Positions 1 to 29,624 of a DNA stretch of 48,629 nucleotides are shown in pieces. Origin of the DNA: Thermoplasmatales archaeon E-plasma. Its GTDB lineage: Archaea > Thermoplasmatota > Thermoplasmata > Thermoplasmatales > Thermoplasmataceae. The notes beneath the pieces are model-generated. The model was not told the DNA's origin. It saw nothing but the letters and a program-made list of their open reading frames with translations, and ran no database searches. The stretch is from assembly GCA_000496135.1 (NCBI GenBank), contig KI542677.1, positions 1 through 48,629 on the forward strand. The letters run 5' to 3'. Position 1 is the first letter of the stretch, and every line of letters starts with the position of its first letter. The position numbers and the translations under genes are program-made.

Positions 1-2550
1 GTTGCAGTAGACCCGCAGATGATCGGTTACGTTTACGAGTCCTTAGCCAATGTTGCAGAAGAGATATATGATAGGAATGACCTTGGAATCTTCTATACTC
101 CTAGAGTCGAAGTAGATTTCATGTGCAGAAGAAGTCTGGTTGAATACCTATCAAAGAACCTATCTGAAATCCCAAAGGAGAAATTTTACCATTTAATCTT
201 TGACCCAATAGAAGAGAGAGACAAAGTGGAAAGTTGGTTTTCCAAAGGTGATTTGTGGAGGAAAGTAGAGGATACTCTAGACAACTTATCTGTGGTTGAC
301 CCCGCCTGTGGTTCGGGTGCATTCCTTGTAGGGATGCTGAACGTTGTAACGGAACTTTACAAGATGGTTTACAAACATATAGGAGGAAGTCTGGACGACT
401 TTAAAATAAAGAACAGAGTCATACAATACTCTCTCTATGGTGTAGATGTGATGCCCTGGGCAATACACGCTGCTGAATTGAGACTTTGGCTGCAACTTAC
501 CGTGGAGACAGATTTCAAAAAGGATGAATTAAGACAGCATCCTCTCCTCCCAAACCTAAATCTTAACCTCAGAGTTGGAGATTCCCTTGTTCAGGAAATC
601 GGTGGAGTAAGTTTCAATCTAAGGACGAATAATTTGAAGCCTCACCTGAAAAGAAAACTCGAAGACCTAAAGCAGGAAAAGAGAAAATATTTCGAAAACT
701 CTTCAACTGCGAAGTTCAAAACGCCCGAAGAGGTCAACGAGGAAGAAATTAGACTTTTTGAAAAGATTATAGATGAAAGAGTTGAAAGCCTTGAAGCGGA
801 GATCCAAGTTTTGGAAAAGAACGTAAAAATGGCTAAATCTCAGGTCACATTAGCCGGAGAAAATATAACAGATGAAAAGAGGGTCGAGGAAAACGAGGAA
901 AAAATCGAAATTAACAATAAAGAAATTGAGAAATTGAAGAGCGTAAAAGAGCGCCTAAAAGACCCGGAAAAGAAGCCTTTTGTTTGGGACATTGATTTTG
1001 CAGAAATATTTGCTGAAACGAAAGGCTTTGATATAGTGATCGGAAATCCACCTTATGTTAATTACAAGAAAATATCCCCTCCAAACAAAGAAAAGGAAGA
1101 AATAACAGAAGAGGATAAGACTGAATATAAAGATAAATTAATCCAAGTACTCAAAACAAGATTTAATCTAATAGGAAATTTGGATAGAACTAACGATTAT
1201 TATATATATTTTTACTTCCACGGATTGAGTCTTCTAAACAAAAACGGCACCTTCTGTTTTATAACCTCAAATGCTTGGCTAGATGTTGATTATGGCAAAA
1301 ACCTCCAGGAATTTTTGGTCAAATATGTTCCTATCATTGCAATATACGACAATCCAATAAAGGCTTTTACCCACGCCGATGTAAATACTATCATAGCTTT
1401 ATTTGGGTCTCCTGAAGTTAAGCAGAGAAGTCTAAATGATTGGACTTCTGGGATGAATGGAGGTAATGAGATAATATGGCCTCGGATCAAGAATTTAGCT
1501 AAGTTCGTTATGTTCAAAAAACCATTTGAAGAAGCCATATCTACTCAAAATCTCATTGCTCTTGAAAATATAAAACAAAAAACCGAAGGGAAGAATATTA
1601 CTGAGTTAGTTAACAATGTAGTTAATGAAAATGATTATAGAGTATTTCCAATAGTACAAGAAGATTTGCTTGAAGATGGCTGGGAATACCCGGATAGATA
1701 CAGTGGGAAAAGATTCGGTACTGGTACCTATGGAGGTAATAAATGGGGCGGTAGATTTTTACGGGCACCAGATATTTATTACGCTTTAATAACCAAAGGT
1801 CAACACACATTTGTGAAATTGGGAAGTATGGCCTTTATAAGAACTGGTGTCAAGGAAGGTGGCTATAGTGATTATATCCGCCCAAAGTCAAAAATTAAAG
1901 AAGAAGACGTTGACAAGTACCTTCCGATCCTAAAAAATGTGAAAGAGCATAATCATATATTGATAACTACAAGTGACTCTTTCATAGTAAAAGATATAAA
2001 TAAATTCAAAAAAGTGATTGAAAACAGAAGATCTCCAATATTATGGCTTGCGGGTCGTGGTTCTACTCATAAATGCTATTTCAATCCTAATAAATTTTCG
2101 TTTAGTGGAAACTTTATCGGAATAGAACCAAACATCCGTGAAATCACGGAATCTTTAACCGGATATTTAAATTCAACTATTTGCATTCTAATTTCAGAAG
2201 TTGAGGGGCGAAGTAAGGGCATCGGTGGTTCTGCTGCCGTGTTTAGTAAAACTGATTTGAAAAGCCTTGAAGTGTTTGAGGAGAAAAAATTGACAAAAGA
2301 ATTCTCTAGTTGCTTCGATAAGATTAAAATAAGAGAGATGAAAACAATTTTCGAGGAGTGTGGTATGGATCCGAACAAGCCAATTCGGGAGCAAGAACCA
2401 AAACCTCTTCCTGATAGAGCAGAACTTGACAATATCATCTTCAATGAACTTGGTTTAACTCAGGATGAGAGGAAAGAGGTATACTGGTCAGTTTGTGAGC
2501 TCGTTAAACAGAGGATCGACAAGGCGAAAAGCTTGAAAGGTGAAAAATAA
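1..2550 (+). CDS. Eco57I-like N6-adenine DNA methyltransferase with specificity region (5' end missing)
   Basis: This gene modifies DNA by adenine-N6 methylation, as expected for a restriction-modification or related defence system. The reading frame is open from base 1, before the first ATG at 19, so the N-terminus lies outside the window. Motif I (DPACGSGAFL, about residue 95 counted from the ATG at 19) and catalytic motif IV (NPPY, about residue 342) are present. A charged, coiled-coil-like insert (about 205-325) separates them. The C-terminal half (about 560-790) resembles a target-recognition domain. The stop overlaps the next start (TAATG), so the gene is translationally coupled to the metallopeptidase gene downstream. 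Neighbours suggest a DISARM-like or type I/IIG-like locus. The methylase assignment is firm; the system type is inference. Confidence 0.9.
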   Translation, partial: VAVDPQMIGYVYESLANVAEEIYDRNDLGIFYTPRVEVDFMCRRSLVEYLSKNLSEIPKEKFYHLIFDPIEERDKVESWFSKGDLWRKVEDTLDNLSVVDPACGSGAFLVGMLNVVTELYKMVYKHIGGSLDDFKIKNRVIQYSLYGVDVMPWAIHAAELRLWLQLTVETDFKKDELRQHPLLPNLNLNLRVGDSLVQEIGGVSFNLRTNNLKPHLKRKLEDLKQEKRKYFENSSTAKFKTPEEVNEEEIRLFEKIIDERVESLEAEIQVLEKNVKMAKSQVTLAGENITDEKRVEENEEKIEINNKEIEKLKSVKERLKDPEKKPFVWDIDFAEIFAETKGFDIVIGNPPYVNYKKISPPNKEKEEITEEDKTEYKDKLIQVLKTRFNLIGNLDRTNDYYIYFYFHGLSLLNKNGTFCFITSNAWLDVDYGKNLQEFLVKYVPIIAIYDNPIKAFTHADVNTIIALFGSPEVKQRSLNDWTSGMNGGNEIIWPRIKNLAKFVMFKKPFEEAISTQNLIALENIKQKTEGKNITELVNNVVNENDYRVFPIVQEDLLEDGWEYPDRYSGKRFGTGTYGGNKWGGRFLRAPDIYYALITKGQHTFVKLGSMAFIRTGVKEGGYSDYIRPKSKIKEEDVDKYLPILKNVKEHNHILITTSDSFIVKDINKFKKVIENRRSPILWLAGRGSTHKCYFNPNKFSFSGNFIGIEPNIREITESLTGYLNSTICILISEVEGRSKGIGGSAAVFSKTDLKSLEVFEEKKLTKEFSSCFDKIKIREMKTIFEECGMDPNKPIREQEPKPLPDRAELDNIIFNELGLTQDERKEVYWSVCELVKQRIDKAKSLKGEK

Positions 2551-3698
2551 TGAAATCCATGACCGTGGAAGTAAACCCGGAAGTTATTAAGTGGCTCAGG
2601 GAAAGCTCTGGTTGGAGGATAGAGGAAGTAAGCAAGAGATTAGGAACTAGTTCTGAGACAGTATTAGATTTTGAAGCAGGAAAAAGGTCACCCACCTTAA
2701 CGCAACTAAGTGAAATGTCTAAATCATTTAAACGACCCATAGCCTCATTCTTTTTGCCCAAGCCTAAACAAGATAAACCTTTACCAAAGGATTACAGATT
2801 TATCCCGAATAAAACAGGTATTTTCGATAAAAAAACCATTCTGGCAATAAGAAGGTCGCGAAGCCTTCAGAGTATAAGCAGAGATCTTTCCGTCAACATA
2901 AGATACGAAACAGAAACAAAGGCTGAAAAGGCTAAATTATCGGAAGATCCCGATTCGATCGCAAGAAAATATAGAGAATTGTTCAGCCTGAGCTCTGAAA
3001 AACAGAGGAAATTCAAAGATGCTTACAAATTGTTTGGTTATTTGAGAGATGTCCTTGAAGATTCAAACGTTCTGGTCTTCCAGTTCTCCATGCCTATCGA
3101 AGATGCAAGGGGCTTTGCATTAGCAGACGAATCCCCATCCATTGTTGTAATTAATTCAAAAGACAGTATAGAAGCAAGGCTGTTTACCCTAATGCATGAA
3201 TTCGGGCACATTCTTCTTGGTGAAACAGTAATAGATATTCCTGACGAATCTCTGGTAAATAGGGACAGCATAGAAAGGTGGTGTAATACATTTTCGGCAT
3301 CGTTTTTACTGCCGAAGCAATCAGCTGAGGAGTTATTTAAAGAATATCAAGGCAGATTAGTGGAAACTGAAACTCTAAACTCTTTGTCCAGAAAATATAA
3401 AGTCAGCAAGGCTGTGCTTTTGGTTAAGATGCTGGAACTGAATTATATTTCAAGGCAGGAATTCGATAATGTACTGGCGAGATATGTGCCAAAGGAGGGT
3501 GAGAAGAAGACCAAGGAGAAAAAGAAGAAGATAGGGGTAACCTCAGATCAGAGATGCCTCTCGGAGATGGGCAACAAGTTCGTCTCTTTGGTAGCTAACA
3601 ATTTCGATAAAGATTTCATAACATACAGTGATGCCCTGAGTTATTTGTCAATCAAATCAAAGAACTTTGATAAGGTTCTGGTGAAAGCGAGAAAATGA
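2550..3698 (+). CDS. XRE-family HTH protein with ImmA/IrrE-type metallopeptidase domain
   Basis: The protein is predicted to be a DNA-binding regulator or antitoxin with a zinc-peptidase-like domain, of the COG2856-Xre type. An N-terminal helix-turn-helix (about residues 8-65) is followed by the metallopeptidase motif HEFGH at about residue 216. The C-terminal 100 residues are basic and carry a Lys-rich linker near residue 320. Such proteins act as phage-type regulators or as antitoxins of PIN-like toxins in other systems. Here the stop overlaps the start of the DUF4411 gene by 4 nt (ATGA), which fits a toxin-antitoxin pair embedded in a defence operon. The ATG start overlaps the methylase stop by one base. 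Peptidase activity is inferred only from the motif. Confidence 0.85.
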   Translation: MKSMTVEVNPEVIKWLRESSGWRIEEVSKRLGTSSETVLDFEAGKRSPTLTQLSEMSKSFKRPIASFFLPKPKQDKPLPKDYRFIPNKTGIFDKKTILAIRRSRSLQSISRDLSVNIRYETETKAEKAKLSEDPDSIARKYRELFSLSSEKQRKFKDAYKLFGYLRDVLEDSNVLVFQFSMPIEDARGFALADESPSIVVINSKDSIEARLFTLMHEFGHILLGETVIDIPDESLVNRDSIERWCNTFSASFLLPKQSAEELFKEYQGRLVETETLNSLSRKYKVSKAVLLVKMLELNYISRQEFDNVLARYVPKEGEKKTKEKKKKIGVTSDQRCLSEMGNKFVSLVANNFDKDFITYSDALSYLSIKSKNFDKVLVKARK

Positions 3699-4186
3699 CC
3701 TCAAATATCTATATTATGGATTCTTCTTCGCTGATTGAGCTGAACAGGCACAATCCGATTGATGTATTTCCCAGTGTATGGAAGAATATGGAATCCTTGA
3801 TCAGTAAAGGTCTTCTGGTAGCCCCTACAGAGGTACTTTACGAAATAACGGAAAGAGATGATCAGCTGGCAAAATGGGCCAAAACACAAACCAGCTTTTT
3901 TCGTGCACCCACACAGAAACAGATTGAAATTCTGAAGGGCATATTAAAAGCATATCCATCAATGGTAAGGGAAGACAGGAAATTTGATGCGGATCCATGG
4001 GTTATTGCTTTAGCCATAGAGATGACAACGAATTCCCAGCAAACACTGACTCCAATAAAGAGGATAGTGGTTACAGAAGAAAAACTGAGAGGGGAAAAAA
4101 TCAGAATCCCTTACGTTTGCCAGAAATACAACATAGATTCAATCGACATTATAGAAATGTTCAGGATAGAGGGATGGAAATTTTAG
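3695..4186 (+). CDS. DUF4411-type PIN-like protein, probable toxin
   Basis: This 163-aa protein starts with an IYIMDSSSLIEL segment, the first acidic strand typical of PIN-like nucleases. A second acidic cluster occurs at FDADPWVIALA (about residue 95), and ITERDD and VVTEEK segments supply further acidic residues. The pattern matches the DUF4411 family, which commonly sits next to XRE/ImmA proteins. The likely role is an RNase toxin neutralised by the preceding protein. It overlaps that gene by 4 nt and lies 9 nt before the helicase start. Ribonuclease activity is inferred from the family, not shown. Confidence 0.8.
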   Translation: MTSNIYIMDSSSLIELNRHNPIDVFPSVWKNMESLISKGLLVAPTEVLYEITERDDQLAKWAKTQTSFFRAPTQKQIEILKGILKAYPSMVREDRKFDADPWVIALAIEMTTNSQQTLTPIKRIVVTEEKLRGEKIRIPYVCQKYNIDSIDIIEMFRIEGWKF

Positions 4187-4195
4187 GGTGATAAT

Positions 4196-7100
4196 GTGCC
4201 ACTACAAAAAGAGATAATTGATAATAGCGAAGGAAACAAGTTGGTCAGCTTTCTAAACAGCACTTTGAAAGAGAATGCCAATACGAATCTCGATATAGCA
4301 ACTGCATTCTTCAATATAGAAGCTTTTGCAATGATTAAGGACAACCTGCACGGGTTTACGAGATTCAGGCTTCTGCTCGGCAAGACTCCGGAAATCCAGA
4401 ATGAAAAAACCCTTGGTGATGTTCTTTTAGAAGAGATCCGGAAAGAAGTTGAAGGGTTTGACTTAACCAGGGAAGCAGATTCCACCGTGAGACTGTTCAT
4501 CAAGTTCCTGGGAAGAGAAAACGTCGAAGTAAGGCTGTTCGAGAAATTCCTTCATGGAAAAGCGTACATCTTTGATGACAGAATCGTAATAGGGTCATCG
4601 AACTTTACCGCAGCGGGATTGACAAGATATGGTGAGCTGAACACGTGGCAGCAGCAGTCCCAGGCAGTCTACACAAGAAAGGAATGGTTTGAGAAGTTCT
4701 GGTCAGAATCGGTGGATTTCAAGGATGACTTAATCAGACTTCTGGAAGATTCAAGGTTTGGTAGCAAAGAATACTCTCCTTATGAGATCTATATCAAATC
4801 GTTGTATGAGCTCCAAAAGGATGATATCAAAGAAGAACAGAAAGGAGAAAAGGATAAGCCAAGAGGATTGCCGGAAACCAAGGTTAACCTTGCCCAATTC
4901 CAGGAGGATGCAATTGCCAGAATATGGACAAGAATGAAGAAATATGGTGGCTGTATAGTTGCAGATTCAGTGGGATTGGGAAAGACATGGATTGCAAAAA
5001 AGATTCTTGAACAGATAGGATACTATGAGAGAAAGAATATTCTGGTCGTCTGCCCCGCTCAATTAAGAGAAATGTGGCGATCCGAATTAAAAAAGATTGA
5101 CACCAAGGAAAACATTCTTTCACAGGAAGACCTCGCTTCTGAATCTTATCTGCGAAAAGGCGAAGAGAACTCTGGGTGGAAGGATGGATAACGTTGAACT
5201 GATTGTTGTGGATGAAAGCCACAATTTCAGGAATCCATTGTCGAATAGGTGGGAAAATTTCTTTTCTTTGGTTCACGACAACATTTCAGAAACGGGAAAG
5301 AAACCTTACATCCTGTTCCTGACCGCAACGCCCATAAACAACACCCCATGGGACCTGTACTGGCAGATCATGCTCCTTGTTTTGATGGATAGATCAGCAT
5401 TTATCAAGGAAAACATACCCGCATCTGTTTAAATTCTTCAAGGAAGCAAAAGGGACCCCTTCAATGCTGAACGATTTGCTGAACGAGATTTCCATAAGGA
5501 GAACAAGAGATTACATCATTGAGAATTACCCTGAACCGTTCATCATTCGGGAGCTGCCGAACGGAGAGATAGAGGAGCAAAAAGTAACATTTCCAAAGAG
5601 AATTCTGGAGAATGTCAACTACAAGCTAGACAGCGCCTACAAGGGAATGTACAAGGAGATTTCAGACACGATTACAGAGAAACTGAAGATGGCATACTAT
5701 AAGATTCTGGAATACAGGAGGGAACCCCTCAAAACAGAGGAGGAAAAACTCACTCTGGGTAGAATGGTTGCCATAGGCGGTATATTCAGGACCATACTTC
5801 TCAAAAGGTTAGAGAGCAGCGTTGATTCCTTCAGGAAGAGTATCTCAAATCATATAAGATTCCTGGAGAAATTGAAGGTCTATCTAAAATCAGGAAAGCT
5901 CTTAACGAAGAAGAGTTATTTGAAGTACCTCCTCAATGTTTACGATGAGCTGGAAGATGGAGATCTTAGAGATGTCTTGGACGACTTCAGAATTGATGAA
6001 TACAGGACTGATGATCTGTTTAAGGACATCGATATAGACATCTCCCTACTCAGTGGTATTTTGGAAAAAGTGAACAGGATCAAACCGGAAGACGATTCTA
6101 AACTAAACGTTCTCAAGGAGAAACTCCTGGATCTCTCAAAGGGCGGTCAAATCGTTCTATTCACATATTACGCGGACACACTGAACTATATCTACAGCGA
6201 GATAATGAAAGATGGGCGATTTTCGAAACTTAAGATAGAAGCAATATCAAGTTCCGGCATGACAAGTAAGAGTCCACAGGAAAGAGAGACTATCATTAAA
6301 CGATTCTTCGAGAAAGGAGTCGATATCATTCTCAGCACAGACGTACTGTCAGAAGGGCAGAACCTACAAACAGCTAAATTCCTTATCAATTATGACCTGC
6401 ACTGGAACCCCACCAGGATGATCCAGAGAGCAGGGAGGATAGACAGAATTGGATCTCCATATAAAGAAATATACGTCTATAATTTTTTCCCGGAAGATGA
6501 GCTTGAAGAACTCCTAAAGCTCGTAGAAATACTGCAAAATAAGATAATTGGTATTGACGAAGCCGTAGGCCTAGACCAGACCATACTTGGCGAGGAAATA
6601 CATCCCAAGGTATTTGGAATTATCAGAAGAATCAAGGGAAAGGATGAGAAGGTATTTACAGAATTAGAGAAGGATATATTTGGTGGGGGAGAGGTATTCT
6701 ACCAACCTCTGAAAGATTTCCTCAAGAATAAGGGAGTTGAGGAACTCGAAAAAATACCGAATGGCGTATTCAGCGGATTGAAAAAAGACAAGCCATCAGG
6801 AATATTCTTCTACTACAAATTCGGAGACGATTTCCACTTTTGGTATCTATACGATCTGAAATCTGGTACAATGCTTACAAGAAAGACCGAGATTCTAGAC
6901 TTTATAAAATGCAAACCAGACGAAATACGGATAATTCCGGACTTTTTCGAGCGGGTTTATGATGCCAACAAATATGTTCTGGAGGACATAGAGAGAATGT
7001 ATAAGGAAATCGAGTTGAGTCACACCCAGGATTCGCAATTGAAAGAACTTAACAGGTCAAAAAGCACTAAATTTATCAAGAAGATGATTGATGAAATTGA

Positions 7101-7380
7101 GTTACAAATAACTGATTATCTGAATGAATACCCCAATGATACTTCGGCGGAGCAGGTGTGGGAACCCATCAAGACAAAGCTCCTTTCCCTGCCGCCAACC
7201 AAGAAAAGACTTCAGGAACTTAGAAAAATATGGAGAGAGTATAAAAAGAACAACGATTGGAAAAGAATGACCACGGAACTCGGAGGATTCTTGACCGAAA
7301 AGGGAATATTTAAGAAGGCGGTAGTGGAGCCCTTTGACTTGTCAAAGCTGAAGTTGATTGCGATGGACTTCATTTCATAA
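4196..7380 (+). pseudogene. PLD nuclease-SNF2 helicase fusion, interrupted by two frameshifts
   Basis: Read across three frames, this is one protein of about 1,060 residues. An N-terminal phospholipase-D-like domain has an HKD motif (HGKAYIFDD with GSSNF, near base 4555-4600). A SNF2-type helicase follows: motif I (DSVGLGKTW, about 4965), DESH (about 5212), LTATP (about 5320) and QRAGRIDRIG (about 6425). The frame moves by +1 near 5150-5160 and by +1 again near 5405-5430, both beside short A or C runs. Single extra bases would explain both, so sequencing error, recent inactivation or phase variation are all possible. The start is a GTG at 4196 behind a GGTGA ribosome site. It is probably the restriction arm partnering the upstream methylase. 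Confidence 0.85.
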
Positions 7381-16974: not shown

Positions 16975-19159
<2,185 letters not shown>

Positions 19160-23413: not shown

Positions 23414-23744
23414 GGTTGATTTTAATTTAGTATTAAAACATTATATGCATTCATGACGAGGATGTTCAGATCTGCATTCTCCATTGTCACAAAGGTGTAT
23501 AGTGCAAGGGTAAAAACATATGTTATCTTTATGAAGAATAACCTTCTCAGAACTAGATTTCTTGATAGGGCTGCATAAGATATGAAAATTTCCAAACAAA
23601 TCGGAGATAACAGTTCAGTGATGAATAGAGTATTTCACTGAGATTTCATCACTCATCATAAATTTTCTCGTGAAAGACCGGATTGGTATTAAAAATAGAG
23701 GGTACCTCAAAACCCTCAAATTTCATTACAGAGCTAACAGGATA
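23414..23744. other. Intergenic region with a 9-bp inverted repeat
   Basis: About 330 bases between the MFS promoter side and the end of the ATPase operon. AGTGATGAA (23617-23625) and TTCATCACT (23645-23653) are perfect reverse complements with a 19-base loop, about 90-130 bases beyond the last stop of the operon, and may end its transcript. A short open frame of 41 codons (23454-23579) lacks a ribosome site. I consider it non-coding. The MFS promoter should lie at the left edge (TTTAATTTAGTATTAAAAC). Confidence 0.45.
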
Positions 23745-24608
23745 TCATCTTTCGTTTTCCCTTTCAGCTGTCCTCTCCCTAATCCTCTCGGCCAGATGAT
23801 CTACCATCTCTGAAAATTCCTTAGTCAAGTTTGTCTTAGTATCTTCGTCCGGATCAGGGATTGTTTCAAATATGCTTTTTGACTGAAAATCCATGCCTAT
23901 TAGTTGAGAAAATGCCTTTGTTTGACTTTTATAGGTGAGGCCTTTCATCGCCCTTAAGATCTCTTCTGTAGTTAGATGATGACTATCTGTCTTTGAGTCC
24001 ATGGCTCTCTCAACAGCAGCAGCTATCAGTCTTATGGGAAAAAATCCTTTCCGGGGAAAATTCTTTTCATCACCATTTATCCATGAGGTGACATCGTCTC
24101 TTACCAATATCAACATGGAGAATAACAACAAAGAATTGAAATAATTGGAAAAGCCATTTCCCTCTAATCCGAAATTGGTTAAGACGTGCGTGGAAATTGA
24201 CACTTTATTCATAGGCACTATCAGAAAGTCATCGTGAGAAGAGTCATATTCCATGGAGATCAAATCGTTTTGTGCTAACGTCTTTTCTATCTTCTCTATT
24301 TTTAATGGTTCTGCATTCTCTAGGTCCTGTCTGAATATTTTTTCGTCTGAACCGATGGATAGGTATACCATAGTTACCTCCTGCAGCAAGTTTTTCACGC
24401 TTACATAACGATTGTAGACTGACAAGTTAGAAACAAAATATGGTAGATTGTTGGAGTAGTAATCTGGCAGTCTCTCTGAATCTGCGGAGGAAAGATATCT
24501 CCAAAGGTCTTCGATGAACAACTCCATAGCTTCAATGCCTATCGAGCAGTGGGGACAAATTGACCCTGAAACATCAAAGTTTGTAAGTCGGCATATCTTA
24601 CAAATCAT
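23745..24608 (-). CDS. Zinc-ribbon protein, last gene of the two-ATPase operon
   Basis: A 287-residue protein. It opens MICKICRLTNF and then has ICPHC at about residue 18-22, an N-terminal zinc ribbon or treble-clef knuckle. The remainder is helical, with a hydrophobic patch (SLLLFSMLILVRDD, about 152-165). A possible winged-helix part (HHLTTEEILRAMKGLTYKSQ) and a charged C-terminal helix follow. It matches the first gene of the operon in size, N-terminal knuckle and general layout, so the two may be distant paralogues. The start overlaps the SMC-like ATPase stop by 4 nt, suggesting that they form a complex. I do not recognise a named family. Confidence 0.8.
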   Translation of the reverse strand: MICKICRLTNFDVSGSICPHCSIGIEAMELFIEDLWRYLSSADSERLPDYYSNNLPYFVSNLSVYNRYVSVKNLLQEVTMVYLSIGSDEKIFRQDLENAEPLKIEKIEKTLAQNDLISMEYDSSHDDFLIVPMNKVSISTHVLTNFGLEGNGFSNYFNSLLLFSMLILVRDDVTSWINGDEKNFPRKGFFPIRLIAAAVERAMDSKTDSHHLTTEEILRAMKGLTYKSQTKAFSQLIGMDFQSKSIFETIPDPDEDTKTNLTKEFSEMVDHLAERIRERTAERENER

Positions 24609-26512
24609 ATCAGCCCCACCGTAGGGTGATTGACCCCCTCTTTCACCACAGTCATTATAATTACTTTGTTGTTTCTCTTTCCAAATTCATCAGCGTATGA
24701 AAGTATTCTTTTTCGTCTTTCTTCATCGAAGAACTCATAAATTCCATCGCAGAGTATTATAGGTATTTCTGGAGAATAACCTTGTGCAAGGGCTAACTGC
24801 AAGGTTAGAGCAATAGTCGCTTGTTCTGACCTGCTAAGGTTTTGTGTCTCAAGTATTTCAAAACCCTCTGCGGTTTTCTTCCTAGCAAGAATGTTGAAAT
24901 TATTGTCCACATAAATATCAAGGTCGAAAGACATTTCTTTCAATATTTTCTTTATATTCTTGTTAAACTCTTCCTTAAGCTTTGTTTGTTCCGATTCCCG
25001 CAGTTTTTGAAAATGGTCATCTATGTCTGACAATGAGTTCATTACACCTTTGTCAAAAATATCAATAGTTTTTGTCTCTACAGGATAATTTGTTCCGAAG
25101 ATGTTTATCTGTGAATATTTTTTGCCCATTTCCAAATCTTTTATTTCGGTCTCAAAAGTTTTTATCTGGCTCTGGAGTGATTTGAGTCTGTCTGAATAGT
25201 CTCTGTTGCCAGCAGAAATGGCTAGCTGGAGGTTGTCCCTCTGCTTACTCAATTCGGATTTTTTGATTTCTTCTGAATGTAGCTGGGCCAACGTGAAATC
25301 CAGGTCCCGTTGGTAGTTTGTTAAGTCGTCTTTATTCCTGAGGATATTTTGTTCTAACCCAGAAATACTCTGAGATAGCTCTTTCTTCCTCTTCGATACT
25401 TCATTCAAGTCACCTGCCTTTCTTGAAAGCACTGAGATCTGAGAGTCGAATCCCCTAATTGCCTCATCTTTCTCATTAGTTATTCTCTCAACTTCGGCTG
25501 GGTTTATTTTATTGGAACCGCAGAGAGGACAAACTACTTCGCCAGAATGCTCATTTTCAAGCATTGAATGAGTACGCTTAAGAATATCGTAAAGAATTTG
25601 CTCCTTAGACCTCTTATCCTTTAGAGAGTTGATCTTTGCCTCGATCTCTGGAATCAAATCTATGTCCGCCTTTTCATACTCTTCAACGGTTTCCCTGGAT
25701 TCTCTAAGCTTCTGCTCCAATTGCTTAATTTGCTCGTTTGTCTGTTCAATTCTACCATTATAGTTCCTAATCTGTTTTTCGTATTCTGCTATTATATTGT
25801 TTGATTTATTAATTAATTTCTCCTTTTCTCTTATTTGACTGTTTATCTCTAATACCCGCTCCTCCCTATTAGGGTCATTTTTTGCCTCCTTACTGATTTT
25901 CTCTTGTATGGCCTTTAGTTCTTGTTTAACTTCTTCTAGTACTTTTCGTTTTTCTTTAATCTTTTTTTGAGAATCTGCGGATTCCTTAATCATTCTGTTG
26001 AGTTCCTGAATTTTCTGAAACAAATCTTTTTTGGTTTCTGCGACGCCGTCTATAACGTCCTCGTATCTTTTGATCATATCATTGAAATCTTTAAGGTAAT
26101 CACTTACCTTCACGGATGTCGTATGAGTTAAAATACGCATTATCCAACTTAAATCACTCACTACATTCGTTATTACAAACCTAGGATTAGAGCCCTTGAA
26201 CCTTCCATTTCTGGAAATGAGCGCTGCTTCATTGATCAGGTCGCCACTTATGTTTATTCGAGCTTCATCGAGACCTACACTGATCAACCCGAAGTTGCCT
26301 CTACTGCCGTCCTGAAGTATGCCAAGCAGCTTCTGTTCTTCTGAGATTCTGGTATCCCTGTTGGAAGCATCATATGAGATTGCTGCAGCAATTGCTCTAA
26401 TTAAAGAGGATTTCCCCACTGCGTTATCCCCGTATATCAAAGCAAGCCCAGTATCTGGAAATTCAAAATATGAATCACTAATTGCTTGGACTCCTTCTAT
26501 ATACAATTTCAC
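24605..26512 (-). CDS. Rad50/SMC-like ATPase with zinc hook
   Basis: A 635-residue ABC-type ATPase of the SMC/Rad50 class. Walker A GDNAVGKSS is at about 28-36. Long coiled coils (about 160-310 and 335-480) flank a zinc-hook CPLC at about 325. A signature-like segment NLSRSEQATIALTLQLALA lies near 555, and a Walker B-like strand IPIILCDGIYEFFDEERR near 583-600. The usual DE after the Walker B strand reads DG here, with acidic residues a few positions on. It is shorter than genomic Rad50 and lacks an Mre11 partner nearby. It is closer in size to DndD or Lamassu LmuB-type ATPases. The start is GTG at 26512 behind AGGGGGCG. Confidence 0.88.
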   Translation of the reverse strand: MKLYIEGVQAISDSYFEFPDTGLALIYGDNAVGKSSLIRAIAAAISYDASNRDTRISEEQKLLGILQDGSRGNFGLISVGLDEARINISGDLINEAALISRNGRFKGSNPRFVITNVVSDLSWIMRILTHTTSVKVSDYLKDFNDMIKRYEDVIDGVAETKKDLFQKIQELNRMIKESADSQKKIKEKRKVLEEVKQELKAIQEKISKEAKNDPNREERVLEINSQIREKEKLINKSNNIIAEYEKQIRNYNGRIEQTNEQIKQLEQKLRESRETVEEYEKADIDLIPEIEAKINSLKDKRSKEQILYDILKRTHSMLENEHSGEVVCPLCGSNKINPAEVERITNEKDEAIRGFDSQISVLSRKAGDLNEVSKRKKELSQSISGLEQNILRNKDDLTNYQRDLDFTLAQLHSEEIKKSELSKQRDNLQLAISAGNRDYSDRLKSLQSQIKTFETEIKDLEMGKKYSQINIFGTNYPVETKTIDIFDKGVMNSLSDIDDHFQKLRESEQTKLKEEFNKNIKKILKEMSFDLDIYVDNNFNILARKKTAEGFEILETQNLSRSEQATIALTLQLALAQGYSPEIPIILCDGIYEFFDEERRKRILSYADEFGKRNNKVIIMTVVKEGVNHPTVGLI

Positions 26513-26527
26513 TAAAATCGCCCCCTA

Positions 26528-26674
26528 TTACTCAACCCTTACCACCTTGGCTACTTCAGAAACAATGATGTTTTTAATATCATCCTGACTAATTCTGCTT
26601 TTATTTATCCTCTTCTCCAATGAACTTATGCAGTTCTGAGAAATATTTTTCCTTATAACTTGGGTATCTGTCAT
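26528..26674 (-). CDS. 48-residue micro-protein in the two-ATPase operon
   Basis: A short open frame encoding MTDTQVIRKNISQNCISS and ending EVAKVVRVE. It has a very strong ribosome site (GAGGAGGG, 7 nt before the ATG), its start overlaps the stop of the 149-aa gene by 4 nt, and it ends 15 nt before the SMC-like gene. These three facts together argue that it is real. It is mostly helical and charged, with one Cys. No family is recognisable. It may be a small subunit or clamp of the complex. Confidence 0.7.
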   Translation of the reverse strand: MTDTQVIRKNISQNCISSLEKRINKSRISQDDIKNIIVSEVAKVVRVE

Positions 26675-27120
26675 AGTATTTCCCTCCTCAGATAAATCCT
26701 GTAATAGCTAAACCAAGGACGTTTTTCTTCCTTCGACTTTTCTTTCTCGTTTTCCAAGACCTGCTTGAGTTTCGTAATGACATTTTCATCAAGACCCGAT
26801 ACATCATATATTTCGAGCCCACCTCTGGCTTTGCCTGCTCCAGATCTCCTGCTGCCTGCATCAAGTTCGACTTCTATACTAATTGGAACGTGCCTAAGTA
26901 GCGCATAATCTTTGGGAAATATTGTTAGTGCATCAGCATTCTCTTCAAGATTCTTTTTTAATTTATCAATTAGAGGCGGGACGTCACCCCTTCCTATGTG
27001 TAAAAATCTCCTACAGTCATTCGCACAGCTATCTTTGTATTCCCTAAAGTAAATCTCAATTTCCAATTGCCCCGAATAGGGAAATCTTATTCCTTCTGAG
27101 GTCCCAGTATTAGTTTCCAT
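26671..27120 (-). CDS. Unknown 149-residue protein in the two-ATPase operon
   Basis: A soluble protein starting METNTGTSEGIRFPYSGQLE, with a Cys pair in KDSCANDCRRFLHIGRGDVP, then mixed alpha/beta sequence (ISIEVELDAGSRRSGAGKAR) and a charged helix. The C-terminus (PWFSYYRIYLRREIL) is aromatic and basic. I do not recognise it. Its ATG overlaps the AAA+ stop by one base (TGATG), so the AAA+ protein and this one are made together and probably interact. The ATGA at its end couples it to the 48-residue protein. Confidence 0.75.
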   Translation of the reverse strand: METNTGTSEGIRFPYSGQLEIEIYFREYKDSCANDCRRFLHIGRGDVPPLIDKLKKNLEENADALTIFPKDYALLRHVPISIEVELDAGSRRSGAGKARGGLEIYDVSGLDENVITKLKQVLENEKEKSKEEKRPWFSYYRIYLRREIL

Positions 27121-27830
27121 CAGTTCTCACCTACCATTTCTACCACTTCCAGCAATGTCTCATGCTCAATGTCTCTCAACGACTTAATTTTTCCTTGGTC
27201 GATCTTTGATTCTAAAGACTTTAATACTTGCTCTGTGTTCACCTCAAAAGTCCCCCCTCCCAGTGATTTCTCTGCGAACTCTTTCAGTTGCTCCTTGCTC
27301 AAGGCAGGGATTGAAAGGGGGTACAATCTTGAAACCAATGCAGGGTCCACCATTTCTGGCTTATTCGTCGTTGCTATCACAAGAGTGTTAGAATGATCAA
27401 TATCATCTAGCAAGTGAAAAGCAACCGAGTTAATTGAAAAGTGCCACTCCTTTGCAATGTCAATATCTCTGCTCATTAGGGTGCTTTCGATATCATCAAA
27501 AATTATTATTCTCTTCTCCATTTGTTTGCTGTCGGAGTTCGCAATAAAAGCTTTCTTCAACTTTTCTTCTGCTTCTCCCCATTTTGGTGAAGCAATGTCT
27601 GATCCATCAAGCAGGAAGATCTTTACTGGTGTGCCCTTACCTATTAAAAGTGCAGCCTGTTTTGCAATTTCTGTCTTTCCGTTTCCTGGGGGACCTGAAA
27701 GCAAAAATCCTGAAAACTTCAAGCTAACATCATTTTTGAATACGTAGTCTGCAATTTTATAAATTTTCTTTGCGATTTCGTTCTGATACTCAAGCAATTT
27801 CGTTGCCTTTATTCTTTTACTTATTTCCAT
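27120..27830 (-). CDS. AAA+ ATPase
   Basis: A compact 236-residue AAA+ module. Walker A GPPGNGKT is at 46-53, Walker B IIIFDDIES at about 107-115, sensor 1 IATTNKPE at about 154, and an arginine-finger type SRLYPLSIP at about 168-176. A short helical lid follows. No additional catalytic or DNA-binding domain is present, so it should act as a motor or switch for partners, in the manner of clamp-loader-like or McrB-like helpers. The ribosome site AAAGGAGGATAAGG before the ATG is strong. It lies 19 nt after the first zinc-ribbon gene. Confidence 0.9.
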   Translation of the reverse strand: MEISKRIKATKLLEYQNEIAKKIYKIADYVFKNDVSLKFSGFLLSGPPGNGKTEIAKQAALLIGKGTPVKIFLLDGSDIASPKWGEAEEKLKKAFIANSDSKQMEKRIIIFDDIESTLMSRDIDIAKEWHFSINSVAFHLLDDIDHSNTLVIATTNKPEMVDPALVSRLYPLSIPALSKEQLKEFAEKSLGGGTFEVNTEQVLKSLESKIDQGKIKSLRDIEHETLLEVVEMVGEN

Positions 27831-27849
27831 TAACCTTATCCTCCTTTAT

Positions 27850-28707
27850 CTATCTCGTCCTAACATTCTCCCTTAATCTTTGGAGATATAGAACTATGTC
27901 TGGAGATATAACGTAAACCTTATCGTTGTTGCCATTATCCTCAACATTGATTGTGGCCTTTTGTGCATAGTCTGTACTAAGGGAACTGAGATTGGTTATT
28001 ATCGTCCCATAGACATTACCTGTCCCCCTCCTCTTCTTCAGAAATTTGTTTGTTCTTTCAAGAGAAATCTTACCATCGCTGTTCCCTACTATGATTGACA
28101 GCATGATGATCCATGGTTTTTTTGGAACAAGGTTCAATTTTTTGATATCCTCTCTTGTGTTACAATGGGAATAGTCTCGAATTAAAGGGAGTAGCGAATA
28201 AAATCCTATAATGTGACCATATCTCTGCTCCGCTCGATCTGTTACCGATGAGCGGTTGTAAGATTCTTTCAGGTTCTTGATCACATCGCCAGGATAAATT
28301 TTTGGCGAAGTACCGCTGCTAAGCGATGAAGATTCCCAATTTATAATGGAACCATCAGATAGTTCCTTTAAGATTTTCAATTGATTAAGTCTGGTCTGTA
28401 CCTTCTTCGTGAATAACTCCAGTGTCGTCTCATTGTTGCCTTTATCTATGAATTGATCTAGGAAGAACTTCATTGAGTTCTTATATGTCCGAAGCAACGA
28501 ATCTTCCTGCACAATGAATGCAAATTCCCTTAGCATCTTGAATACAGACTCCCTATCAACGGAGGGGTTGTATGATAACTCTTTCTTTGCGTCTTCAAAT
28601 AAAACGTCTATGAGGTCTTTCAATTCTTCACATTCAGTGCATTTCTGACCCCCGTCGGTAACTTTTCTCCCACAGAGAATACAGTTTATGTTCATTGGTA
28701 TCATCAT
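27850..28707 (-). CDS. Zinc-ribbon protein, first gene of the two-ATPase operon
   Basis: A 285-residue protein with an N-terminal zinc knuckle (CILCGRK then KCTEC, about 9-27) followed by helical regions. A segment KKPWIIMLSIIVGNSDGKIS (about 200-219) leads into a possible winged-helix stretch. The C-terminal VYVISPDIVLYLQRLRENVR could form an interaction helix. Overall length and order mirror the protein at 23745-24608. It starts at 28707, with in-frame alternatives at MIPM and MNIN. A TATA-like TTAATATGATAATATAATA precedes it in the 128-base divergent region shared with the PP-loop gene. Function is unknown. Confidence 0.8.
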   Translation of the reverse strand: MMIPMNINCILCGRKVTDGGQKCTECEELKDLIDVLFEDAKKELSYNPSVDRESVFKMLREFAFIVQEDSLLRTYKNSMKFFLDQFIDKGNNETTLELFTKKVQTRLNQLKILKELSDGSIINWESSSLSSGTSPKIYPGDVIKNLKESYNRSSVTDRAEQRYGHIIGFYSLLPLIRDYSHCNTREDIKKLNLVPKKPWIIMLSIIVGNSDGKISLERTNKFLKKRRGTGNVYGTIITNLSSLSTDYAQKATINVEDNGNNDKVYVISPDIVLYLQRLRENVRTR

Positions 28708-28835
28708 GGTATTATATTATCATATTAATACATTATGCAACGGAGTAACAATGCAATCATTAAACTACTTCACTTTTATCCTTGATTCAAGGAAATATAG
28801 ATATAACATTACAGATTGCAGGTGTGATTGTGATT
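28708..28835. promoter_or_regulatory. Divergent promoter region of the two-ATPase operon and PP-loop gene
   Basis: The 128-base region holds TATA-like sequences for the minus strand (ATATTATCATATTAATAC beginning near 28715) and for the plus strand (AATATAGATATAAC near 28794-28807). GGTGTGA at 28821-28827 is a good ribosome site for the ATG at 28836. Shared control of both transcripts is therefore possible. Confidence 0.5.
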
Positions 28836-29573
28836 ATGAATTTAGAAGAAGACAAGAAAGGGTGGGCGCTCCTTTCTGGCGGGAAAGATAGTACACTAGC
28901 TGCAGTTGAAATGAGTATAAAAAACAAGTTGGAAGGCGTGGTATACATTGATACTGGTATAGGGCTGAATGAGACAAAAGAGTATGTCGAAGAGATTTCC
29001 TCTAAGTTTGGCTGGGACCTGAAAGTTTTTAGAGGATACACTAGTTATGACTCTTATGTTTTAAAGCACGGGTTTCCCACTCCAAGTGGACATAGTCAGA
29101 TAATGCATATTCTGAAACTAGATGCAGTCAGGAGGTTCATATCTTGGCATAAAAGAGAGATTGGCGTTGCTCCTCTTCTCTTTTCTGGCGTAAGAAGATC
29201 TGAGAGCAGCAGACGGTCACAATGGGCAAGGAGATTTCAGTTTTATCAGGGAGCATACTGGGATTGCCCAATATTTCACTATGATGATGATAAAGTATGG
29301 AAATTTCATTATGAACATAAAATTCCTATAAATAGTGCGTACGGGACAATTGGAAAGAGTGGAGATTGCTTATGCGGTGCATTTGGTAATTTAACTGAAA
29401 AAAAAATAATTGAAAAGTATTATCCTTACCTATCAGATCATATAAGCCATTTGGAAGAGAATACTAAATCAGAGAAGTATGGTATATGGGGAAATACAGA
29501 TAAATCTATATGTGCACTCAAAGGAAAAGGCCAATCTGAGCATCTTCTTTGCAGCGAATGTTCCATGCAGTGA
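28836..29573 (+). CDS. PAPS-reductase/DndC-like PP-loop protein
   Basis: A 245-residue adenine-nucleotide alpha-hydrolase with the PP-loop SGGKDST at residues 14-20 and the family segment YIDTGIGLNET. GVRRSESSRRSQW follows in the middle. The C-terminal half has several Cys residues (DCPIF, DCLCG, SICAL, LLCSEC), enough to bind an iron-sulfur cluster or zinc. Relatives activate sulfate or carry out thiolation; DndC uses this fold in DNA phosphorothioation. The ATG at 28836, with GGTGTGA upstream, is preferred over an upstream TTG. It diverges from the two-ATPase operon. A link to that operon is inference. Confidence 0.85.
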   Translation: MNLEEDKKGWALLSGGKDSTLAAVEMSIKNKLEGVVYIDTGIGLNETKEYVEEISSKFGWDLKVFRGYTSYDSYVLKHGFPTPSGHSQIMHILKLDAVRRFISWHKREIGVAPLLFSGVRRSESSRRSQWARRFQFYQGAYWDCPIFHYDDDKVWKFHYEHKIPINSAYGTIGKSGDCLCGAFGNLTEKKIIEKYYPYLSDHISHLEENTKSEKYGIWGNTDKSICALKGKGQSEHLLCSECSMQ

Positions 29574-29579
29574 TAACTA

Positions 29580-29624
29580 AAATTGTATTTTAAGGCTTTG
29601 AATATAAAAGATTAAATACAATTT
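29580..29624 (+). terminator. 11-bp inverted repeat after the PP-loop gene
   Basis: AAATTGTATTT (29580-29590) and AAATACAATTT (29614-29624) are perfect reverse complements with a 23-base loop. The hairpin starts 7 bases after the stop of the PP-loop gene. It probably marks the transcript end, but its all-AT stem is weak. Confidence 0.4.

Follow-up and report, generated by a model that had tools for sequence, protein, structure and literature searches.

Archaea-specific SMC-related proteins (ASRPs) include the coalescin ClsN, which is linked to chromosome organisation, and a survey of the family found no consensus flanking genes (PMC9389158). LmuB of the Lamassu systems is about 650 aa long, carries a CPxCG motif and has its Walker B glutamate changed to glutamine (PMC10586767). 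A different type of enzyme is found in the type-4 BREX and Ssp systems, where the PP-loop proteins BrxP and SspD, respectively, are responsible for phosphorothioation (PMC12839542). The locus described here encodes both an ASRP and a PP-loop enzyme, and is a real, mobile and recurrent gene system lacking a model in the libraries searched. No description of the gene set was found in the literature searched, which takes in only a minor part of subscription-journal papers; conflict systems with ABC ATPases have reportedly been surveyed broadly before.

The window, i.e. the whole 48,629-nt stretch of Thermoplasmatales archaeon E-plasma DNA that was analysed, was found to encode all seven predicted ORFs of the cassette (Table 1), six on the minus strand and one, the PP-loop gene, divergent from them. 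The six minus-strand genes are spaced by +19, -1, -4, +15 and -4 nt, in agreement with the tightly joined, co-directional operon proposed in the initial annotation. The divergence of the PP-loop gene from a 128-base region was likewise seen, but with a shifted start: ATG at 28839 is likelier than TTG at 28782, and ~131 nt then separate it from ZR1. The ORFs are real genes: another genome of the family, G050 (L006/L011), encodes all seven in an unchanged order, with 53–76% protein identity, and for six of them homologues were also found in other phyla. The micro-protein mic48 was found in the window and G050 only.

Table 1. Features of the cassette, in window coordinates.
Feature	Position	Strand	Description
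ZR1	27850..28707	-	285 aa; N-terminal zinc ribbon and predicted tandem winged-helix domains; ORF; 68% identical in L011
AAA+ ATPase	27120..27830	-	236 aa; GPPGNGKT / FDDIES / TTN; KEWHxSIN motif; Pfam AAA 1.5e-18
P149	26671..27120	-	Predicted ferredoxin-like (beta-alpha-beta-beta-alpha-beta) protein; AF2 pLDDT 69
mic48 micro-protein	26528..26674	-	48 aa; 53% identical in G050
SMC-like ABC ATPase (ASRP family)	24605..26512	-	635 aa; NF045487 303 bits, 4e-90
ZR2	23745..24608	-	287 aa; zinc-ribbon protein, ZR1 paralogue
PP-loop (PAPS-reductase-like) enzyme	28839..29573	+	SGGKDS, SGDCLCG, LCSEC; PF01507 3.7e-17
Whole insert	23450..29602	.	Relative to empty site in same-genus genomes

The operon and the PP-loop gene had been suggested to be linked, and comparison to two genomes of the same genus bore this out, as both have an empty site in place of one transferred insert. 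In G071 (L077) the flanks are joined exactly, with window position 23450 directly followed by 29602, and in G072 (L076) position 23446 is joined to 29645; an MFS transporter gene and gcvT flank the site in the window, L076 and L077 alike. From these junctions, the insert comprises 6.15 kb holding the six operon genes and the PP-loop gene. No tRNA and no Rfam RNA lie at the insert, and it is not marked by any shift in GC composition. Both the SMC and P149 genes are present in only 2 of 117 genomes of the order (G000 and G050, the latter having the cassette and gcvT on different contigs), and whole-genome searches located the AAA+ gene in a few genomes of other phyla. The seven-gene set is mobile, with a patchy distribution across archaea and an occasional presence in bacteria. 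Elsewhere in the window, two ORFs at 16975–19159 (366 and 352 aa) seem to equal one ORF of 725–731 aa in L076/L077, and this gene may be broken in the window. Positions 1–7380 hold a second, restriction- or defence-like cluster, including a Type IIG restriction/methyltransferase-like protein truncated where the contig begins, an RmrA-like HTH protein, and an HKD+Snf2 helicase, with two separate ORFs matching one model (C3a139).

The 635-aa ATPase had been described as a Rad50-like protein with a zinc hook. The zinc hook (CPLCG) was confirmed, but Rad50 models scored far below their cut-offs and the protein was instead assigned to the ASRPs, passing the curated cut-off of NF045487 (300 bits) as a borderline case at 303.1 bits; the SMCs of related systems score 275–353 bits. 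The features that define ASRP membership, a zinc hook CxxC together with N- and C-terminal Walker motifs, were all found in the protein, and this is the only firm family membership in the cassette. A motif alignment further identified Walker A (GDNAVGKS), the signature (LSRSE) and Walker B (CDG), where Gly occupies the position of the expected catalytic Glu, a residue also missing in most type-A SMC homologues (defined below) and in several ASRPs. Another recurrent ASRP context is found in haloarchaea, where many ASRP genes adjoin an rdfA-like gene (L111-L140); these rdfA-linked proteins have a Walker A of NATNRTS (Lys to Arg) and have lost the Walker B Glu.

The presence of two zinc-ribbon proteins was upheld and could be refined, as ZR1 and ZR2 are paralogues, homologous over 263 columns (hhalign probability 99.1, E 6e-19). 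Neither ZR1 nor P149 belongs to any family in Pfam, PADLOC or NCBIfam, and neither P149 nor the ZR proteins are covered by a PADLOC model. In the AF2 model of ZR1 (pLDDT 82), the zinc ribbon precedes helices and wings that we read as two winged-helix domains, so the protein looks like a zinc ribbon with tandem winged helices. This predicted secondary structure might suit KITE proteins, the tandem winged-helix partners of SMC proteins; the Foldseek matches of ZR1 to winged-helix proteins (such as Cdt1, MAGE-A11 and SarS) are all weak (E 0.01–0.12), and for both ZR1 and P149 no Foldseek match went below E 1e-3. For P149, a ferredoxin-like fold was predicted with moderate confidence, and its homologues occur in type-A loci. 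Comparisons by hhalign led us to reject ZR as a homologue of RdfA (probability 0.9) or of DUF4007 (SspB; 0.3, and 0.2 for the type-B ZR), and P149 as a homologue of RdfA (0.1). Profile alignment suggests a probable relationship between ZR1 and the ZR-like family of type B (probability 61, E 8e-5).

The AAA+ protein shares 29–49% identity with system homologues in other phyla, and KEWHxSIN is a motif specific to the family found in the cassette. Close AAA+ homologues are also encoded beside molybdenum hydroxylase-like or hydrogenase maturation genes (L019-L024, L092), and these unrelated contexts suggest that the AAA+ family has further roles outside the cassette. AAA+ matches on Haladaptatus plasmids and in L019-L024, L092, L104 and L109 were rejected as representing AAA alone and not the system. 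On an uncultivated tailed virus contig with terminase- and portal-like genes (L081:7848-8825), a type-B-kind AAA+ without Walker A was found together with a middle-protein-like ORF; the viral AAA+ is possibly a decoy or a remnant.

Relatives of the cassette were collected using an AAA+ alignment scan of GTDB genomes as well as whole-genome searches. The core, i.e. an AAA+ gene adjoining the SMC gene, was found in Thermoplasmata, Archaeoglobaceae, Hydrothermarchaeum, Methanocellales, Nanoarchaeota and Heimdallarchaeota (Asgard) MAGs, in additional genomes from these phyla, and in a few bacterial MAGs labelled Actinomycetota and Dehalococcoidia, where the bacterial labels rest on binned contigs. 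Loci resembling that of the window (ZR1, AAA+, P149, SMC, ZR2) were designated type A, and those with a different ZR-like protein and a smaller middle protein type B; L022 and L025 show a third, more distant arrangement. In a tree of the SMC proteins, types A and B are separated by a weak branch (43/97) and are not resolved as a single clade. The proposed co-occurrence of operon and PP-loop gene was supported for type A, where 8 of 9 fully visible loci have the gene in three arrangements (it diverges from the operon in five loci, lies downstream in two and upstream in one), but not for type B (1 of 6). None of 35 AAA-hit loci without an SMC gene has it, a difference to type A that is significant also with related loci collapsed (Fisher 5e-8 and 8e-6, respectively); as the PP-loop model was built from system members, these counts constitute a linkage test and not a census. 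The link is thus strong for the subtype of the window only, and the five type-B loci lacking the gene imply that the core can work without it. A PP-like gene in L022 (type C) was left out of the count, as it had no Pfam match and matched only SspD (1.6e-5).

The PP-loop protein of the window belongs to the PAPS_reduct family, but proved not to be specifically DndC-like as had been suggested: it matched DndC at only 4e-4, compared to 1.8e-11 for BrxP and 2.5e-9 for SspD, and haloviral PAPS reductases are closer still, with HFTV1 gp58 sharing 33% identity over 96%. Most of the PAPS-reductase-like proteins from haloviruses, phages and plasmids with which it was compared share its SGGKDS, SGDCLCG and LCSEC motifs, and most of these relatives keep the cysteines of SG(D/E)CxCG...CxxC. 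Viral scans with the PP-loop and SMC proteins gave no relative. Outside the pair formed by the window and G050, the PP-loop proteins of the system contain a ferredoxin-type 4Fe-4S domain (Pfam, alignment) and match BrxP at E 3e-44 to 2e-81 (best 1.7e-81) and SspD at 6e-17 to 5e-21; BrxP itself has the same ferredoxin-type region (PMC12839542). The L028 PP-loop protein aligns at 31–32% with a true type-4 BREX BrxP (L152) and with a DUF4007/desulfurase-linked PP-loop protein (L151). The window protein is only 22–26% identical to its BrxP-like counterparts and looks like a diverged, haloviral-type enzyme that displaced a BrxP-like one. Two features of the BrxP-like relatives, their ferredoxin domain and their WCC/CxxC cysteines, are missing from it, and its chemistry may therefore differ. 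By analogy to these relatives, the cassette might carry out a sulfur-type modification, a suggestion we make tentatively; it encodes no cysteine desulfurase, and housekeeping aminotransferase-V genes of the host could supply the sulfur.

PP-loop enzymes commonly thiolate tRNA, and a ferredoxin-like fold, as modelled for P149, is common in RNA-binding proteins, both of which would suit a system for sulfuration or repair of RNA or tRNA instead of DNA defence. However, the presence of SMC-like ATPases and winged helices argues for DNA, and the patchy presence does not fit a role in tRNA maintenance, making this reading highly improbable.

The gene neighbourhoods of the relatives are indicative of defence. 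The L028 locus adjoins genes for HmaA and HmaB homologues and a DarG macrodomain, and its PP-loop gene overlaps at its end with a NucS/PD-(D/E)XK-like gene; a SIR2 gene is found near L030 and a CD-NTase gene near L007. Together with the patchy presence and the exact gain or loss, these neighbours indicate that the cassette is probably a defence system, although no nuclease or other killing effector was identified in it. The initial proposal of a new nucleic-acid-handling or defence system thus holds insofar as no known system fits and relatives lie in defence islands, while the defence role itself is a prediction. The SMC/AAA+ module might instead serve the maintenance, partition or repair of an integrated element, with the PP-loop gene as virus-derived cargo, considering that the window locus is an insertion, that its PP-loop protein resembles haloviral and plasmid genes and that ASRPs include ClsN (PMC9389158). 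This appears improbable, as the insert has no integrase, replication or partition gene and no terminal repeats of at least 9 nt, relatives adjoin defence genes, and type A keeps the PP-loop gene across rearrangements.

Our best reading, in which we place evenly balanced confidence, is a horizontally moving, uncatalogued archaeal defence against foreign DNA that is centred on an ABC ATPase and uses PP-loop modification, probably as self-marking. The ASRP would dimerise via its zinc hook and form a clamp that binds ATP but hydrolyses little of it, a state also proposed for LmuB; together with the tandem winged-helix proteins ZR1 and ZR2, this clamp would sense DNA structure. An AAA+ ring and P149 could load, remodel or release the complex, and the PP-loop enzyme would adenylate and sulfurate, or otherwise modify, nucleic acid at the site of capture, with housekeeping desulfurases as the source of sulfur. 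The modification would most likely be self-marking, as for SspD, BrxP and DndC. It is doubtful, yet conceivable, that the cassette represents a class of its own, found mainly in archaea and devoted to sulfur-based nucleic-acid modification and defence, in which the ASRP clamp, the small AAA+ ring and the zinc-ribbon winged-helix proteins direct the PP-loop enzyme and replace Dnd/Ssp parts.

The same components could alternatively act in a Lamassu-like abortive system without self-marking, where detection of invader DNA by the ASRP and ZR proteins would set free the PP-loop enzyme as an exchangeable effector attacking nucleotides, tRNA or DNA, with other enzymes taking its place in other loci. 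A zinc-hook SMC of 635 aa that has lost the Walker B Glu, as described for LmuB (PMC10586767), would agree with such a mechanism, as would the use of two distant PP-loop lineages, the scarcity of PP-loop genes in type B and the nuclease-like gene overlapping the PP-loop gene in L028. We nevertheless regard it as unlikely, since defence PP-loop families have so far been tied to modification, the AAA+ and P149 have no Lamassu counterpart, and the SMC fits ASRP (4e-90) far better than LmuB (1.3e-12). With self-marking defence as the preferred reading, the cassette, as one recurrent ASRP gene context, offers a predicted function for part of a family without a previously reported consensus neighbourhood (PMC9389158). 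If this is correct, the few systems in which a PP-loop enzyme and a coiled-coil ABC ATPase work as a pair would be joined by an archaeal one. The small size and clean empty site of the cassette make it directly testable.

Profile comparisons substantiated that the locus contains no standard Dnd, Lamassu, Mre11-Rad50 or BREX gene set. Like ClsN and Sph1/2, the cassette SMC is an ASRP with a zinc hook and coiled coil, but other ASRPs are encoded alone or beside rdfA, whereas this one is part of a fixed operon with AAA+, P149 and ZR genes, and ZR is unrelated to RdfA by hhalign. Mre11-Rad50 differs in that the Pfam, PADLOC and NCBIfam models revealed no nuclease in the operon. Lamassu or ABC-3C systems (LmuABC) likewise have a small SMC-like ATPase with a zinc hook and an altered Walker B Glu, as well as partner proteins and a patchy distribution; the cassette, however, has no LmuA effector or LmuC match, adds the AAA+, P149 and PP-loop proteins, and has an ASRP as its SMC. 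In Dnd (DndABCDE), too, a zinc-hook coiled-coil ABC ATPase accompanies a PP-loop enzyme, but the cassette lacks DndA, DndB and DndE and matches DndC (4e-4) and DndD (1e-4) only weakly. Ssp and type-4 BREX (SspBCD; BrxP, DUF4007, BrxC, PglZ, BrxL) resemble the system in the BrxP/SspD-like, ferredoxin-domain PP-loop proteins of its relatives and in having DNA-binding winged-helix partners; in contrast to these, the cassette has an SMC and a small AAA+, its ZR proteins are not homologous to DUF4007 by sequence profile, and none of its proteins matched BrxC/SspC, PglZ or BrxL. By analogy, the cassette would work most like a mix of Lamassu, with its zinc-hook SMC sensor, and Dnd/Ssp, in which a PP-loop enzyme is accompanied by an ABC ATPase or winged-helix partners.
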